Source: Desulfurivibrionaceae bacterium
GTDB taxonomy: Bacteria; Desulfobacterota; Desulfobulbia; Desulfobulbales; UBA5123
Assembly (NCBI GenBank): GCA_030145325.1
Contig: JAQYVW010000025.1
Location: forward strand, 1 to 40,098
Direction of reading: 5' to 3'
DNA: 40,098 nucleotides
Both the position numbers and the translations under genes were made by a program. Below the pieces are notes generated by a model. That model did not search any database, was not told the DNA's origin, and worked only from the letters and a program-made list of their open reading frames with translations. Shown here piece after piece: positions 17,415 through 25,388 of this stretch. The first letter of the stretch is position 1. Every line of letters starts with the position of its first letter.

Positions 17415-17591
17415 TCACCGGGGGGATTTTTGCTTGATGGCCGTGAACGATGTTTTTTGCTGGGTAAGCTCCGTGTGTCGAGGTGGTTCTTTGTCGTTGG
17501 CAAGCACCGCCAATTCCTCGGCACTTACCCCTTGGTCGCGGGGTGGTTTCTCTGCTTGATTGTTGAGCCGCAGCTTGCTTATCTTGCCCAT
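17415..17591 (-). CDS. Possible small downstream ORF (58 aa), unknown
   Basis: A minus-strand ORF begins at an ATG inside the last codons of the ExeA-like gene (13-base overlap) and runs MGKISKLRLNNQAEKPPRDQ to KQKSPR. It is basic and hydrophilic, with a helical stretch SAEELAVLANDK. It would be the fourth gene of an operon whose other junctions are also overlaps. No ribosome binding site is clear and I recognise no family. It may be real or chance. The remaining bases between glgP and this ORF (17237-17414) show nothing I can name. Confidence 0.3.
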   Translation of the reverse strand: MGKISKLRLNNQAEKPPRDQGVSAEELAVLANDKEPPRHTELTQQKTSFTAIKQKSPR

Positions 17592-18424
17592 GTTACGGCC
17601 TGTTTTTCGGCGACGGTGCGGATGAGAGCCGGGGTGATGGTTGGGTGGGCGGCGGTGAGCGACTCCATTACCGAATTGTAGAGGAGACGGTTAATCTCGC
17701 GCGGGATACCCTGGCTCAGTTGGTGAATCGTGGCGTAGATGTTGGCGGGGAGGAGGTCGGCGCTGCCGCCGCATTTAAGGAGTCGGTACTTGATATATTG
17801 CTCGGTTTCTTGCTGGGACATGGGGTTAAGTTCGATCATAAAGGTGATTCGGCCCCGCAGGGCAGCGTAGCTGGGCGCGGCCAGGCGACGGCGCAGGGCC
17901 GGTTCGGCAATCAGCAGGACGGTGATCAGTTTCTCCCGTTCCGTTTCCAGATTGGCCAGGGTGCGGAGGAGGTGGAGTCCGTCAGCTTTGAGGAAATGGG
18001 CTTCGTCGATTACCACCACCAACCGTTTTCCCTGGTTGTGGAAGGCGATGGCCTTGGCCTGGAGCTGAGCCAACCGTTGCTGGGTAAAACGGGCGGCTTT
18101 TTCTTCCCCCAGTTCATTTAAGATCGCCTCCAGCAACACCCCCTTACCCATCCCAGGATAGGCAAAGATCAGGGCGGTTTCGTGATCACTACGATCAAGG
18201 TCGCGGAGGGAGATCTGCGAGACAAAGGTTTTACCCGAGCCGGAAACGCCGTTTAAGAGGATCAGGGCATGGCCGTCGGCGATGCCTAAGCGCAATTTGA
18301 TCAGCGCTTCCTCGTGCTGGCGGGTGCGGAAGAAGAGATTGCTGTCCAGTGAATCGCGAAAGGGGTTCTGGCGGAGGCCAAAGCTCTCTTGCCAGCTGAA
18401 GAGCGGGGTGGCGGCATGGCTCAT
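17579..18424 (-). CDS. ExeA/GspA-like AAA ATPase
   Basis: The 281 residues open with FSWQESFGLRQNPFRDS, the typical start of ExeA-family ATPases, followed by Walker A GVSGSGKT at 59-66, Walker B LVVVIDEAHFL at about 135 and the sensor-like GIPREINRLL. ExeA proteins work with secretion or cell-wall-linked assemblies, and relatives serve as transposition targeting ATPases. No periplasmic peptidoglycan-binding part is present: the protein is short and should be cytoplasmic. Its ATG overlaps the stop of the MinD-like gene as ATGA, so the two are translationally coupled. The pairing suggests a role in placing or building a polar or envelope machine, which is inference. Confidence 0.85.
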   Translation of the reverse strand: MSHAATPLFSWQESFGLRQNPFRDSLDSNLFFRTRQHEEALIKLRLGIADGHALILLNGVSGSGKTFVSQISLRDLDRSDHETALIFAYPGMGKGVLLEAILNELGEEKAARFTQQRLAQLQAKAIAFHNQGKRLVVVIDEAHFLKADGLHLLRTLANLETEREKLITVLLIAEPALRRRLAAPSYAALRGRITFMIELNPMSQQETEQYIKYRLLKCGGSADLLPANIYATIHQLSQGIPREINRLLYNSVMESLTAAHPTITPALIRTVAEKQAVTWAR

Positions 18425-19458
18425 GATTGGTCCCCTTTTTGCAGCATTTTTTTGTAGCGACCGAAGGCGGAACTGATCCGCAGTTCGCTCATCTCGTCCT
18501 GGAGCAGGGCCACGGCAAGGTTATGGGTGTGTTTGCTGACCCGGGCCTGGGGCCGGAAGACCGAGTAAGGGGTGCGGCGGGCAGTGGCTGCGCCCACCGT
18601 GGCATCCTTAAGGATGTAGCCGATATTTTTGACCTCACGGCTTAGAAAACGATTGGCGCAATCGCTGAACCGCAAGGCCACGTTGGCTGCCTGTTGTAGG
18701 GTGTCAGCCATGTTGACCACCGAGTAGATTGGGCGTTGGTCATGGTCGTTTTCCTGATCCAGTCCTTTCAGTAAACCGTAGGCGTCGGCCAGGGAGGTGA
18801 TGTCCGGGGTGAGGACGAAGATGACTTCATCGGCCGCTTTAAGAAAGTCCCGCACTTCGCGGCCCATGCCCGCGCCGGTGTCCACAATCATCACGTCGGC
18901 CAGTCGCTCTACCTCGCCCAAGGCCTTGATCATCTTTTGCCGACTGGCGTGGTCGCTGTCAGCCATGGCGATGATGCCGCTGCCACCGGTGATGATGCCG
19001 ATTCCTTCCGGGCCGTCAGCGATTAGTTGGGCTGGGGTTGCGTCGGCGGCCAGCATTTCCATCATCCCCGGGCGAGGATCAAGGCCTGCCAGGAGGTGGA
19101 TATTGGCCATCCCCAGATCACCGTCCACCACCACGCACATCTTTCCCAACCGCTGGATGGCGATGGCGAGATTGAGGGCGAGGTTGGTTTTGCCCACTCC
19201 CCCCTTGCCGGAAGTGACGGCGATAACTCGTCCGTAACGGGGGGAAGGAGGGGGCTGGCTTTCAGTGCGGCGAAGATGGATAGCCTGAAAGGCTGTCACC
19301 GCTTCGGCGGGGAACAACAGCGCCTCGCCGCGTAGAACCTTTACCGGTAGTTGCTCAGGGTATTCTGATTCGTAGAAACGGAGCAGGCTTTCCTCAAGAC
19401 CGGTGCGGGCGGCGATATCAGCAATGGTCAGCAGAGATTTGGCGTTGGCCGTGTTCAT
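18421..19458 (-). CDS. MerR-type HTH / MinD-FlhG-like ParA ATPase
   Basis: The N-terminal 65 residues look like a MerR-type helix-turn-helix (LLTIADIAARTGLEESLLRF). A linker leads to a ParA/MinD ATPase with the deviant Walker A SGKGGVGKT at 83-91, VVDGDLGMANIHLL (Walker A') and VMIVDTGAGMG (Walker B). Such ATPases position flagella, pili or chemotaxis arrays, and FlhG is the nearest named relative by motif. The added DNA-binding-like start is unusual for FlhG. The start overlaps the stop of the HDOD-kinase gene and its own stop overlaps the ExeA-like start, both as 4-base overlaps. No flagellar genes are visible nearby, so I do not give the name flhG. Confidence 0.85.
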   Translation of the reverse strand: MNTANAKSLLTIADIAARTGLEESLLRFYESEYPEQLPVKVLRGEALLFPAEAVTAFQAIHLRRTESQPPPSPRYGRVIAVTSGKGGVGKTNLALNLAIAIQRLGKMCVVVDGDLGMANIHLLAGLDPRPGMMEMLAADATPAQLIADGPEGIGIITGGSGIIAMADSDHASRQKMIKALGEVERLADVMIVDTGAGMGREVRDFLKAADEVIFVLTPDITSLADAYGLLKGLDQENDHDQRPIYSVVNMADTLQQAANVALRFSDCANRFLSREVKNIGYILKDATVGAATARRTPYSVFRPQARVSKHTHNLAVALLQDEMSELRISSAFGRYKKMLQKGDQS

Positions 19459-22208
19459 TTCTTCTTCCGTGGGTTGTTCTTTTTCTGCGCTTCCTTAAGG
19501 CCACGTTTGACGGTTTCCAGAACGGTTTCCAGGCGAAAAGGTTTCTTGAGGCAGGCGTAAGCCCCCAGCTTAACCGTGTTCTTGATCTCTTCCTTGGAGG
19601 CCAGGGCGGTGATGATCAAAACCTGCAGATCCGGGTATTCCTCCCTGATGAACTGTAATACCTCCAGACCATCCTTGCGGGGCATTCTGATATCGAGGAT
19701 GGCAAGCTGGTAGGTTTTTTCTTTGAGCCGTTTGATCGCTTCGATGCCGTCGAAGGCGCCATCTGCCTCGTATCCTTCCATGCGCATGCTGTCCAAGAGC
19801 ATTTCGTTGATCGCATGTTCGTCGTCCACCACCAGAATGCGAGGTTTTTCCGCTTTTGGGGCCACGGCGGTTTTTTCTTGCTCAAGATTTTCCCGCATCG
19901 CCCGTAACTGGTTGGATTTGTCCTGAGGAAGGGCAATGGTGAAGGTGGTTCCCTCCCCCTCCTTACTGGTGACCCGCATCACGCCGCCGTTATGTTCGAT
20001 GATGGAGTTGCAGACCGCAAGGCCTAAGCCGGTGCCTTCGCCCTCTTTTTTGGTGGTAAAGAAGGGGTCGAAGATCTTGCCCAGATTTTTCTGGCTGATG
20101 CCGCTGCCGTTATCGTTGATATGCACCTCCACCATTCCATCCGTTGCTTGATCAGTGAGGGTGATAGTACCGCCCTTCGGCATGGCGTGGTTGGCGTTGA
20201 TCAAGAGATTCATGAAGACCTGCTCGATCTGCAATGAATCAACCATCACCTCAACCATGTTCTCTTGCAAGCGGTTGTCGATCTTGATTTTGGTCATGGA
20301 GACCCGGTCACCGAGGACTTTGAGAACCCGCTCCATGATCACGCTTACCCGGTCAGCGATGAGTTTCGGTTGGGTGGGGCGGGCAAAGCTCATTAGATCC
20401 TGGACGATCTTGGCGATTCGTTCTTCCTGATCGCTGATTACTCGCAATCGTTCCTTGATGGAGTCTTCTTGATCCTCGCCGAGAAGACGTTGGAGGATCT
20501 GCACATTGAGTGAAATGATGGTCAGCGGGTTGTTGATTTCGTGGGCTGCGCCAGCGGCAAGTCTGCCAACGGTGGCCAAGCGGTGAGAATGGAAGAGCAA
20601 ACGCTGGCTTTCTTCCATGCGCCTGGCGGCGCGGGCGATATCATCGCTTTGGCGGATTAGATCCGCTTCCAGTAAAAGTCGTTCCAGGCCGTTGCCGGCG
20701 CTTAAGGTCAGGGTCTCAAAGTTTTTCAGTAGTTCCTGGTGGGGACGTTCGTCGTTGTCGTTGACATCGCCGAAATCAACCAGGAGTTGACCCAGCACCG
20801 GCAGTTTCCGGAAATGGGAGTGGGGGCCGGGGGAAAAAAAGGTGGCGAGAAACTCGCCGTCGGAGATCATGTCGATAACCTCTGTTTCCAGATCGTTATC
20901 CTTGCCCGGATCAATAATCCGTCGACTGAGCCTCTTTACTGCCTCCGCTTCGATAACATCGGTTTTCTTACCTTTGCCGTAACGTTTCAGCCGTTCCGGG
21001 TCTGTGGGTATTTGCAGGAGAAGAAAGGCCTCGCCGTCATACAACTGGCCGCTGTAAAAATTGTTGCTGGTGTCGCGAATCATGCACAGGCAGCGCCGTT
21101 TGCCAAAGGCTTGGTGGATGGCGGCGATGACGGTGGCGGCGGCATCGGCCAGGGGTAAACCCGGTCTCAGTTGCCGACACAGGGCTCCGGCAGCTTGCAG
21201 AACCCGATTGCTTTCGCCCAAGATACGATTGTCGTGATCCAGGCGGATGCTTAAATCGCCCAGGCGGCGATTGGCTGAGCCGATTAGTTTGTGGTATTCC
21301 TCTTCGTCCCAGAAGCCCAAGATATTGCCCACCTCGCGGCTGCGTTCTATCACCCCGTCCATCAACGAGTCGATGTCACTGGTGGTAAGATGGTGTTGGA
21401 GCATCATGGTTTCCAGGGCGAAATGGGTCTGTTGGTGACTGTGGGTGCCGGAGGAGAGGAAATAGCTGGAGCCGATACTGTGGGTGGTGCAGAGGAGGTC
21501 AGCAAAACGGATCAGTTTGGGGAGATTGTCCATCTCCGGCAGGATGGTTTCAAAAACCGGCTGATGGTGCTGCCACATTACCTTGGCGAAGATTTCCGGG
21601 AAGTTCCATTTCTCGGCTAATAAACGGCCCGTTTCGATATGATCGGTGCCCAGGATCTGCTGTTCGATGTCCAGGGGGGTGGCTCCCGTGGTGCTGTATG
21701 AGCCTTGCCGTTCCAGTTCCCGGCGTAGTTCAGCATATTCTTCAGGGAATTGGATATAGGCGACCAGTTGCCCCATGTCATGGAGGAGGCCGGCGATATA
21801 CGCTTCTTCCGGGACAGGAAAGCCCAAGCGCTTTGCCAGCTCTTCGGCGGTGACCGCCACCCCGATGGAGTGGAGCCAGAAGTTGAGCAGGCTCTGCCGA
21901 TCCCGACTTAATTGTTCGGCAAAGCAGTCGAAAACCGAGGCGGAAAGGATAATGCTGCGCACCGCATTGAGGCCCATGATAGATACCGCTTGGCGGATGG
22001 AAGCGGCCGGACGTCGGGCGCCGATATAGGCGGAGTTGGCGTAGTGGAAGATGCGGCTGGTGAGAACCTGATCGTTCTTAAGTAGATCGGCGATGGAATC
22101 AAAATTGGCATCCTCTCCTTCCAAGAGCCGGATGGCTTCCATGGCCACGGCAGGAAGGGTGGGAAGTTTGTTGACATCAAGAACCGGGTTCACGCTGTTG
22201 TCTAACAT
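19455..22208 (-). CDS. HDOD domain - histidine kinase - receiver hybrid sensor protein
   Basis: From the ATG at 22208 the protein has 917 residues. It starts with an HDOD signalling domain (NKLPTLPAVAMEAIRLLEG), then a poorly recognised middle region of about 250 residues that may be GAF-like, a HisKA box AAGAAHEINNPL, N box NLLINANHAM, G boxes DNGSGISQKNLGKIF and GTGLGLAVC, and a C-terminal receiver (ILVVDDEHAINEML, LDIRMPRKDG). The kinase phosphorylates its His and can pass the phosphate to its own receiver. No transmembrane segment is seen, so it senses cytoplasmic signals. I chose ATG 22208 because GAGGT precedes it; the longer frame needs a TTG at 22292. It is the first gene of a three-gene operon. 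Confidence 0.88.
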   Translation of the reverse strand: MLDNSVNPVLDVNKLPTLPAVAMEAIRLLEGEDANFDSIADLLKNDQVLTSRIFHYANSAYIGARRPAASIRQAVSIMGLNAVRSIILSASVFDCFAEQLSRDRQSLLNFWLHSIGVAVTAEELAKRLGFPVPEEAYIAGLLHDMGQLVAYIQFPEEYAELRRELERQGSYSTTGATPLDIEQQILGTDHIETGRLLAEKWNFPEIFAKVMWQHHQPVFETILPEMDNLPKLIRFADLLCTTHSIGSSYFLSSGTHSHQQTHFALETMMLQHHLTTSDIDSLMDGVIERSREVGNILGFWDEEEYHKLIGSANRRLGDLSIRLDHDNRILGESNRVLQAAGALCRQLRPGLPLADAAATVIAAIHQAFGKRRCLCMIRDTSNNFYSGQLYDGEAFLLLQIPTDPERLKRYGKGKKTDVIEAEAVKRLSRRIIDPGKDNDLETEVIDMISDGEFLATFFSPGPHSHFRKLPVLGQLLVDFGDVNDNDERPHQELLKNFETLTLSAGNGLERLLLEADLIRQSDDIARAARRMEESQRLLFHSHRLATVGRLAAGAAHEINNPLTIISLNVQILQRLLGEDQEDSIKERLRVISDQEERIAKIVQDLMSFARPTQPKLIADRVSVIMERVLKVLGDRVSMTKIKIDNRLQENMVEVMVDSLQIEQVFMNLLINANHAMPKGGTITLTDQATDGMVEVHINDNGSGISQKNLGKIFDPFFTTKKEGEGTGLGLAVCNSIIEHNGGVMRVTSKEGEGTTFTIALPQDKSNQLRAMRENLEQEKTAVAPKAEKPRILVVDDEHAINEMLLDSMRMEGYEADGAFDGIEAIKRLKEKTYQLAILDIRMPRKDGLEVLQFIREEYPDLQVLIITALASKEEIKNTVKLGAYACLKKPFRLETVLETVKRGLKEAQKKNNPRKKK

Positions 22209-22334
22209 GCCGACCTCGCAGGGGTTGGATGTTGTGCGAAAGAAACCGTATTGAACGCGATCATCTCCCGCGGTTCGGATTAATCCTGGCAACGGTCGTT
22301 GGTATGCGAAAATGTCTAAAATAAGGAGATTTTG

Positions 22335-23456: not shown

Positions 23457-25388
23457 ATGACAGTAGATTTGATGATGAAGATTTTATTGGTTGAGGATGC
23501 AGCCACCATGCGCAAGATGGAGGCCCGGATTCTTAACCAGGTTGGCTTTGAGAATATTGTCGAGGCGGCGGATGGACGTGAGGCCGTGGAGAAGTTGCAG
23601 TCCGAGGATAACATCGGCCTCATCATCAGCGATTGGGCAATGCCCAATATGGATGGTTATGAACTGCTTACCTGGGTGCGTGGCGAGGAGCAGTTTAAGG
23701 AAATTCCTTTTATTATGGCCACCGGCCACGGTGATAAAGCATACGTTGCCAAGGCCAAGGAAGGTGGGGCCAGCGGGGTGGTTGCCAAACCCTTTACCGC
23801 TGATGAATTGAAAGTTCTCATCGATGAGATCTTCGGAGTCAAGCAGGCCGAGGTCAAGAAGGATGAGGGGCCCAAGGTCAGCACCCAAGGTAAGGTGCGG
23901 CTGAAGATGGCCCATATCCAGATCACCGACCATCTGCCTTTAGGGGTGCTTCGGGATCAGGTCGAGTCTGGGGCCAAGAGTCCTGCCAGTTTCGATATCG
24001 AAACCCAATGCATGGCGGGCTGGAATCCGGTGCTGAAGGCCCTTGAAAATGGCGAGGTAGATGGTGCTTTGGTTCTTGCCCCCACCGCCATGGATCTTTA
24101 CAGCTACGAGGTGCCGATCAAGTTGGTCTTGTTTGCCCACCGGAATGGCAGTATTGCGGTGCGTAATGCCTCCGGCACGTATTCCAAGCCTTATCAGCAG
24201 TTTTTTAAGCATAAAAGTTTTCTAATCCCGCATAAGATGTCGGTTCACAATATGTTGGCGCATATGTATTTCTCGCAAATGGGTTTGCGGCCAGGGGTGG
24301 CGGGCAAGGAGGCGGTGAATGTCCTTTTTGATGTTGCGCCGCCCATCACGATGCCGGAATCTTTGAAGGAGAACCCTGAGGTCAGTGGTTTTATGGTTGC
24401 CGAGCCCATCGGTTCGCGAGCCATTGCTGCCGGGGTTGCCGAACGGCAGTTTCTGTCCAGTGAGATATGGGACGGTCATCCCTGTTGTGTGGTGGTTTTC
24501 CGTGATGACTTCATCAGCTCTTACCCGGAGGCGGTGCAGGAGTTTACCACCATGTTGGTTGAGGCGGGGCTGTTTATCCGTGATAATGTTGATCAGGCCG
24601 CCGATATTGCAGTAAAATTCCTCGATCCCCAAGGCACCCTGGGTCTTGAGGCAAATTTGCTCAGGAATGTGCTTTCTGATCCAGACGGAATCACCACCGA
24701 TGATCTCTATCCCGAGATCGCTGATCTTGATACCATCCAACGCTACATGACCAGCAAGATGGAGATCGGGCGAACCATTGATCTGGACCGTTTTGTTGAT
24801 ACTCGTTTTGCCGATGAGGCGTACCGGCAGTTGTCCCTTAGTCGTAAAAGCGGTCAGGAGCGGCAGGTGGCCAGTGACGGCGGCCAGCAGAAGCAGACCG
24901 TTTTTGAGCAGGTGGCTCAGTCCACCCGTGAGGGCAAGTACCTGATCTTTCAGCTTGCCGACGAAAAATATGGGGTCGGTGTTCTCGACGTTCGGGAGAT
25001 TATCGGTCTGATGGAGATTACTGAATTGCCGAACATGCCTTCCTTTTTTGAAGGGGTGATTAATCTCCGTGATAAGGTGATTCCGGTTCTTGACATGCGA
25101 GCCAAGTTTGGCATGGAGCGAGCAGAGCATACCGATCGAACCTGTATTATTGTGGTTGAAATCTCAGGGCTCAAGGGATCAACCCTGATGGGGGTGGTGG
25201 TGGACGGAGTCAGTGAGGTTGCCAATATCAAGGAAGAAGAGGTGGAAGACGCGCCGGTCTTTGGCGGCAGCGTCGATACCTCCTTTATTCTCGGGATGGC
25301 CAAACTGCAAATCGGCGTCACCATCCTCTTGGATATCGATCGGATTCTCCATACCAGTGAAATGGTGCAGTTGAGCGGGGCGATCTGA
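23457..25388 (+). CDS. Receiver - substrate-binding-protein-like - CheW fusion
   Basis: The 643 residues hold three modules. Residues 1-125 are a CheY-like receiver with Glu13/Asp14, phosphoacceptor Asp59 (IISDWAMPNMDG), Thr in IMATGH and Lys in VAKPF. Residues of about 140-440 resemble NrtA/TauA-type (NMT1-like) binding proteins (KMAHIQITDHLPLGVL, GEVDGALVLAPT, MVAEPIGSRAI). No signal peptide precedes this part, so it would sit in the cytoplasm. Residues of about 490-635 are a CheW domain (YLIFQLADEKYGVGVLDV, GVINLRDKVIPVLDMR). CheW links receptors to the CheA kinase. The fusion suggests that a small ligand and a phosphorylation input both act on a chemosensory array. A GAGGGGG site lies upstream of the ATG. 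No cheA or receptor gene is in the window. Confidence 0.85.
   Translation: MTVDLMMKILLVEDAATMRKMEARILNQVGFENIVEAADGREAVEKLQSEDNIGLIISDWAMPNMDGYELLTWVRGEEQFKEIPFIMATGHGDKAYVAKAKEGGASGVVAKPFTADELKVLIDEIFGVKQAEVKKDEGPKVSTQGKVRLKMAHIQITDHLPLGVLRDQVESGAKSPASFDIETQCMAGWNPVLKALENGEVDGALVLAPTAMDLYSYEVPIKLVLFAHRNGSIAVRNASGTYSKPYQQFFKHKSFLIPHKMSVHNMLAHMYFSQMGLRPGVAGKEAVNVLFDVAPPITMPESLKENPEVSGFMVAEPIGSRAIAAGVAERQFLSSEIWDGHPCCVVVFRDDFISSYPEAVQEFTTMLVEAGLFIRDNVDQAADIAVKFLDPQGTLGLEANLLRNVLSDPDGITTDDLYPEIADLDTIQRYMTSKMEIGRTIDLDRFVDTRFADEAYRQLSLSRKSGQERQVASDGGQQKQTVFEQVAQSTREGKYLIFQLADEKYGVGVLDVREIIGLMEITELPNMPSFFEGVINLRDKVIPVLDMRAKFGMERAEHTDRTCIIVVEISGLKGSTLMGVVVDGVSEVANIKEEEVEDAPVFGGSVDTSFILGMAKLQIGVTILLDIDRILHTSEMVQLSGAI

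Follow-up and report, generated by a model that had tools for sequence, protein, structure and literature searches.

The one experimental precedent that we found for a sensor fused to CheW is CheWS of Treponema denticola, a SAM sensor in which CheW is joined to a CheR-like SAM-binding domain and which is proposed to sit beside CheA in the chemosensory array (PMC10653840). CheV proteins also carry CheW in a soluble polypeptide, here together with a phosphorylatable receiver (PMC12691637, PMC4742279). On the side of the binding proteins, NasS is a cytoplasmic NrtA-like sensor that is paired with a REC-type partner, NasT (PMC3795266), and the ABC ATPases NrtC and CmpC have a cytoplasmic C-terminal regulatory domain with an NrtA-like fold (PDB 8WM7, 9UAI, 9UAK). 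NasS and these regulatory domains are precedents for a transport binding protein that serves as a sensor inside the cell.

The window analysed here, a stretch of 40,098 nucleotides from a Desulfurivibrionaceae bacterium, contains an open reading frame (23457-25388, + strand) that joins a receiver, a binding domain of a type usually located outside the cell, and CheW. It begins with an ATG directly preceded by the run GAGGGGG, and encodes a predicted cytoplasmic protein of 643 amino acids with three Pfam domains that score over their curated cut-offs. Residues 9-122 (23481-23822, +) are a CheY-like receiver (Response_reg, E 1.2e-25), residues 145-385 match NMT1_2 (PF13379, E 5.4e-28, 98.9 bits against a cut-off of 24.7) within a two-lobed NrtA-type binding domain that, from Pfam and fold, extends over residues of about 145-460 (23889-24836, +), and residues 494-633 (24936-25355, +) form a CheW domain by Pfam and fold (PF01584, E 3.8e-34, 117.7 bits against 23.5). 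The order and positions of the three domains given in a preliminary description of this DNA were therefore correct, and its statement that there is neither signal peptide nor membrane segment also holds. No signal peptide is recognisable in the 643-residue protein, since the receiver begins at residue 9, and no membrane segment is seen outside the CheW fold, within which the hydrophobicity peak lies (19-mer, mean 1.74, residue 564). Membrane anchoring and export of the fusion were rejected on these grounds.

Comparison with the described systems sets the protein apart from each of them. Like CheWS, it is a soluble protein that combines CheW with a cytoplasmic domain which, from its fold and conserved pocket, would bind a small molecule; CheWS, however, has a methyltransferase-like sensor, places CheW first and is without a receiver, whereas here NMT1_2, of the NMT1/NrtA fold, takes the place of the CheR-like SAM domain. 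With CheV it shares CheW and a receiver whose sequence has the residues for phosphorylation (D14, D59, T89 and K111), but CheV runs from an N-terminal CheW to a C-terminal REC, while in the fusion REC comes first and about 310 residues of binding domain separate the two. NasS and NasT likewise couple a cytoplasmic NrtA-like binding protein to REC, yet they are separate proteins with an RNA-binding ANTAR output and retain the nitrate-coordinating residues; the fusion has a CheW output and no ANTAR partner NasT, and its nitrate ligand set is incomplete, with Cys at the position of a Lys in CmpC that would be equivalent to NrtA K269. The regulatory domains of NrtC and CmpC resemble the middle domain in fold (TM about 0.7) but are attached to an ABC ATPase, and CmpC reads HPGK where the fusion reads HPCC. 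The closest solved structure in both fold and sequence, 3UN6, keeps the CC, STH and H..G positions but is an exported transport subunit without REC or CheW. The fusion is not a CheV (domain order, additional sensor), a CheWS (sensor fold) or a NasS (nitrate ligand position, output). The preliminary description knew of no account of this architecture, and we also found no description of REC-NMT1_2-CheW in the literature; it may be among the 30 undescribed CheW architectures that PMC10653840 counted in Pfam 35.

Both terminal domains have conserved key residues. The receiver has the fold of CheY (Foldseek TM 0.94) and aligns with E. coli CheY at about 42%. Its predicted phosphorylation site, Asp59 (23631-23633, +), is invariant in 81 of 81 relatives, as are D14, T89 and K111 in the same 81 proteins with a receiver and substrate-binding domain (REC-SBP), and the fact that these residues never vary suggests that phosphorylation is under selection. 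The CheW domain, taken from the full-length AF2 model, matches E. coli CheW in the core signalling unit (Foldseek TM 0.90). Glu514 (24996-24998, +) and Arg538 (25068-25070, +), each invariant in 74 of 74 fusions, correspond to Glu38 and Arg62 of E. coli CheW, which form the salt bridge that brings the CheW faces for receptor and kinase into alignment (PMC3828127). Residue conservation, together with the operons considered below, suggests that the CheW domain of the fusion could dock at CheA P5 and receptor tips.

In the full-length AF2 model, built from 18 sequences, the binding domain has a poor second lobe (pLDDT <50 at 235-260 and 277-330), and this was cured by modelling the middle domain with a 70-sequence alignment (pLDDT 94.1, pTM 0.91). 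The closest PDB fold (TM 0.91, rmsd 2.4) is that of 3UN6, a zinc-bound ABC binding protein from S. aureus, followed by the cytoplasmic CmpC regulatory domain and then NrtA, with TM values of 0.71-0.91 over the three. 3UN6 also tops the sequence-profile search, ahead of the regulatory domains of CmpC and NrtC and, after these, NrtA. The resemblance to NrtA-type proteins first noticed from the sequence, which structure prediction could have contradicted, is real, and the domain has an NrtA/CmpA-type binding fold.

Conserved residues point to a pocket in this fold. His228 (H87 of the domain; 24138-24140, +) is present in all 55 aligned REC-bearing or fused rows and in 5 of 5 Tat-exported relatives, His264 (H123 of the domain; 24246-24248, +), in an SxHN motif, in 54 of the 55 rows, and the motif His341-Pro-Cys-Cys344 (HPCC; 24477-24488, +) in 55 of 55. 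Altogether D158, H159, W189, H228, S232, H341, P342, C343 and C344, in the numbering of the window protein, are invariant in the 55 rows, and with the exception of H159 they are, like H264, also kept in the five Tat-exported relatives. In the profile alignment HPCC pairs with HPGK in the regulatory domain of CmpC and with YCCV in 3UN6, and SxHN with SMHN of CmpC and STHY of 3UN6; the Lys of the CmpC domain faces an invariant Cys of the fusion family. HPCC may also lie at the same structural position as the CCCFC motif of Thi5/Nmt1. In NrtA, K269 and H196 balance the charge of nitrate (PMC8786288); by inference His264 would be the counterpart of NrtA His196, and a Cys would stand where NrtA has K269.

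The fusion is widespread. A search with the middle domain found relatives in 30 of the 96 genomes of the order, and the complete REC-SBP-CheW fusion occurs in 24 of the 96, including that of the window, with identities to the window protein of 48-87% among the other fusion genomes (about 23). One of the 24 has a gene split by an apparent frameshift. In a MAG of the same genus the fusion gene is read as two overlapping ORFs (L056:5164-7162, also L023), through either a frameshift or a sequencing error. Relatives are encoded on 204 stretches of named GTDB genomes, and the 80 loci kept from these hold 72 REC-SBP-CheW, 8 REC-SBP and 2 SBP-CheW ORFs. The fusion in named genomes ranges over Desulfobacterota, Ignavibacteriota, KSB1 and Latescibacterota; the titles of records with relatives include Desulfobulbaceae, Desulfobacterales, Desulfacinum, Candidatus Magnetocorallium, Ignavibacteria/Melioribacter, KSB1, Latescibacterota, one Acidobacteria MAG and one Bacteroidetes MAG. 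Desulfacinum infernum DSM 9756, Desulfamplus magnetovallimortis and Desulfonema magnum all have the fusion. Its conservation across the order and the 72 ORFs at named loci argue against chance or a MAG chimera, and an assembly chimera or binning artefact is ruled out by the finished chromosome of the isolate Desulfonema magnum, which encodes it. The viral contigs searched held no relative.

Phylogenetic analysis of the binding domain places all REC-SBP proteins in one clade (support 100/99), which has signal-less stand-alone binding proteins as its neighbours; the exported forms, Tat and lipoprotein, fall outside it. Several REC-SBP sub-clades are without CheW, and at two loci (L129 and L130) a TPR tail replaces it, suggesting that REC plus the cytoplasmic binding domain is the core unit and CheW its commonest output. 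To judge from the sequences of these CheW-less and TPR-tailed siblings, the core can act without CheW. In the CheW-domain tree support was low (44/68) and compatible with either one or several origins. The TPR-tailed genes (L129:2321-4201, L130:5941-7821) lie between ParA-like and Hsp70-like genes, named by eye. Close relatives of the middle domain also include signal-less stand-alone binding proteins of about 310 amino acids (L131:2542-3465, L132:6220-7143, L133:3125-4093, L139:6469-7404), which one family of the order conserves close to housekeeping genes (judged by eye). Elsewhere the same HPCC binding domain is fused to an ECF-type sigma factor (Sigma70_r2 + r4; L034:922-2340, G078:C5), possibly a ligand-controlled sigma factor, with a molybdopterin-type oxidoreductase-like ORF downstream (by eye).

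Within the window the only che gene near the fusion is a lone CheY-like ORF, and no CheA or receptor gene is nearby. Other genes on this stretch encode an HDOD-HisKA-HATPase-REC hybrid (19455-22292, -), an unusual mix of HDOD and kinase, and, in tandem, an XrtA/PEP-CTERM-type ATPase and a MinD/ParA-like ATPase (17579-18424, -; 18421-19458, -), both below curated cut-offs. The genome as a whole has 24 chemoreceptors and four CheA matches. One cluster, C161, comprises CheA, CheW, CheR, CheD, HDOD, a REC protein, CheX and CheB (CheB and HDOD by eye), and no paralogue is closer to the CheW domain of the fusion than the CheW of this cluster (56%). The genome also carries two tandem, nearly identical pairs of CheW and receptor genes (L135:10569-17148, G000:C158).

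Analysis of the relatives was more informative on gene context. The gene order at two loci (L072 and L091) is CheA, CheR, fusion; a CheX gene follows the fusion at L091 and L113, and at L113 CheR precedes it at the contig edge. The CheA of L091 aligns over its full length with the C161 CheA of the window genome (43%). All 24 fusion-bearing genomes of the order have CheA, and the N-terminal region of the C161-type CheA is found in 24 of 24 fusion genomes against 27 of the 72 others (Fisher p 1.7e-8, with genomes treated as independent of shared ancestry). One genome (G007) has a second fusion copy (C1:783045-784001) before MCP, CheR and CheB genes (by eye) and a CheA match at C1:790103, and CheW-less REC-SBP siblings lie in complete che operons at L124 and L125 (most gene names by eye). 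Domain homology and these relatives suggest that the window protein is a member of a chemosensory array.

We lean, by a modest degree of confidence, towards the view that the fusion is a soluble adaptor-sensor of the CheV/CheWS kind, which sits in the array, reads a cytoplasmic ligand and is subject to feedback by phosphorylation. The C-terminal CheW would occupy the CheW position beside the P5 domain of a CheA, for which the C161-type protein of this genome is the likeliest candidate, and docking would hold the central binding domain inside the array and in the cell interior. There, a two-lobed clamp of the NrtA/3UN6 type could close on its ligand, and the linker might relay closure to the interface of CheW and CheA and so alter kinase activity, so that array output would follow an internal rather than an outside concentration. 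The CheY-like receiver, presumably phosphorylated by the same CheA, could provide feedback as adaptation or gain control, in the manner of CheV. Docking and feedback enter this model by analogy with the biology of CheW and CheV (PMC3828127, PMC12691637); incorporation into the array, the direction of signalling, the role of phosphorylation and the ligand are all put forward here as proposals. The preliminary description had proposed that an array could in this way read an internal metabolite without a receptor. The cytoplasmic domain, the invariant pocket and CheW residues and the relatives in che operons bear out the first part of this proposal but not receptor-free operation, and since the host has 24 chemoreceptors and four CheA, modulation of existing arrays as by CheV is at least as likely.

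As to the ligand, the His/His/HPCC pocket and the family's gene company favour a soft transition metal or its complex over nitrate or sulfonate, and nickel or another soft metal is our leading guess, at no more than about a one-third chance. Metal precedents exist in the NMT1/NrtA fold class in the zinc of 3UN6 and the CCCFC iron motif that fungal Thi5/Nmt1 needs (PMC10512395), and 3UN6-like NitT/TauT transporters accompany clade B Ni-CODHs and are proposed importers of a metal such as Ni2+ (PMC6344411). CheW-less REC-SBP genes are found beside HypA-HypB (L110:8372-11038), near NiFe(Se) hydrogenase subunits with a Cache-type MCP gene between (L126:6779-12921) and near a NiFe(Se) hydrogenase small subunit with a receptor gene between (L097:92-3929); HypB is present in the window genome. 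The nickel lead is post hoc and comes from few loci, mostly of CheW-less siblings. It is possible, but in our view rather unlikely, that the same device instead binds a small oxyanion (nitrate, nitrite, bicarbonate or formate) or a sulfonate, as NasS, NrtA, CmpA and SsuA do. By Pfam and NCBIfam the domain falls among NMT1_2 and SsuA-type proteins, its fold is close to those of NrtA and the regulatory domain of CmpC, and the Trp and SxHN positions are retained; against this, the invariant Cys at the CmpC Lys position (by inference NrtA Lys269) argues against plain nitrate binding, the NCBIfam SsuA score of 61 bits is far under the cut-off of 163.5, and zinc occupies the nearest solved structure. 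For the same reasons of Cys and zinc, the nitrate, sulfonate and thiamine ligands suggested at the outset are probably wrong.

Gene neighbourhoods also raise the idea that the fusion senses how loaded or how active a NitT-type ABC importer is, as the NrtC/CmpC regulatory domain does, and reports it to the array. At six Desulfobacterales-type loci (L066, L086, L088, L095, L101 and L108) an ABC ATPase gene lies <100 bp 3' of the fusion, and in five of them genes for a permease and for a Tat-signal binding protein that also has the HPCC motif come next (L088 stops at the contig edge). At L117 and L118 a signal-less binding protein, ATPase, Tat binding protein, permease and REC-SBP are encoded in one run, and CheD is close by. 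In both sequence and fold, moreover, the regulatory domains of CmpC and NrtC rank among the best matches. Most loci, however, have no transporter, those that do belong to a few related Desulfobacterales, and the fusion is the sole PF13379 protein of the window genome, so that no matching importer exists there and a ligand must enter otherwise; we consider transport coupling improbable. L117:5094-11894 and L118:5025-12076 each encode, in a single gene run, three different PF13379-type proteins (signal-less, Tat-exported and REC-fused) along with CheD, an Hpt protein and an ABC transporter. SaoX, SaoA and SaoP of the Sec-assisted organometallic system are among the best NCBIfam models for the family-linked ABC proteins, all well under curated cut-offs; membership of SaoX was rejected (NF040735 cut-off 300 bits, best relative about 69, the window domain without a listed match), and SaoL had no match in the window genome in a search whose control was uninformative. 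That the protein is a CheV-type adaptor only, with a binding domain that has lost its ligand and serves as a structural spacer, would fit the full conservation of CheW and the CheY-like REC and a host with numerous chemoreceptors, such as those where CheV is found (PMC12691637). Yet a spacer would not keep pocket residues that match the REC active site in invariance across phyla, nor a motif common to exported transport relatives, and we hold this to be a fairly remote prospect. It seems very doubtful that the middle domain is an NMT1-fold enzyme such as Thi5, MqnA-type enzymes or DszB, with catalysis by Cys/His and CheW as a localisation tag: Thi5, with its required CCCFC iron motif (PMC10512395), DszB and other such enzymes are among the fold-search matches, but binding proteins are the closest, and HPCC is also present in Tat-exported ABC binding proteins, which bind and do not catalyse.

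CheWS is the only characterised CheW-fused sensor that we found in the literature. An array-embedded adaptor-sensor of the type favoured here would extend to behaviour the principle seen in NasS and NrtC, in which a transport binding protein is re-used as an internal sensor. The family is large, spans several phyla, has invariant REC, pocket and CheW residues and includes cultivable strains, so that the reading of a cytoplasmic ligand by an array through its adaptor ring is directly testable. More speculatively, and with the odds in our judgement clearly against it, these proteins may represent a widespread class of array-embedded cytoplasmic metal sensors, in which a 3UN6-type HPCC clamp acts through CheW with receiver feedback and lets anaerobes steer according to the supply of nickel or another soft metal within the cell instead of a receptor-bound signal. 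In broader terms, the fusion probably lets swimming sediment bacteria tune their chemotaxis array to something inside the cell.
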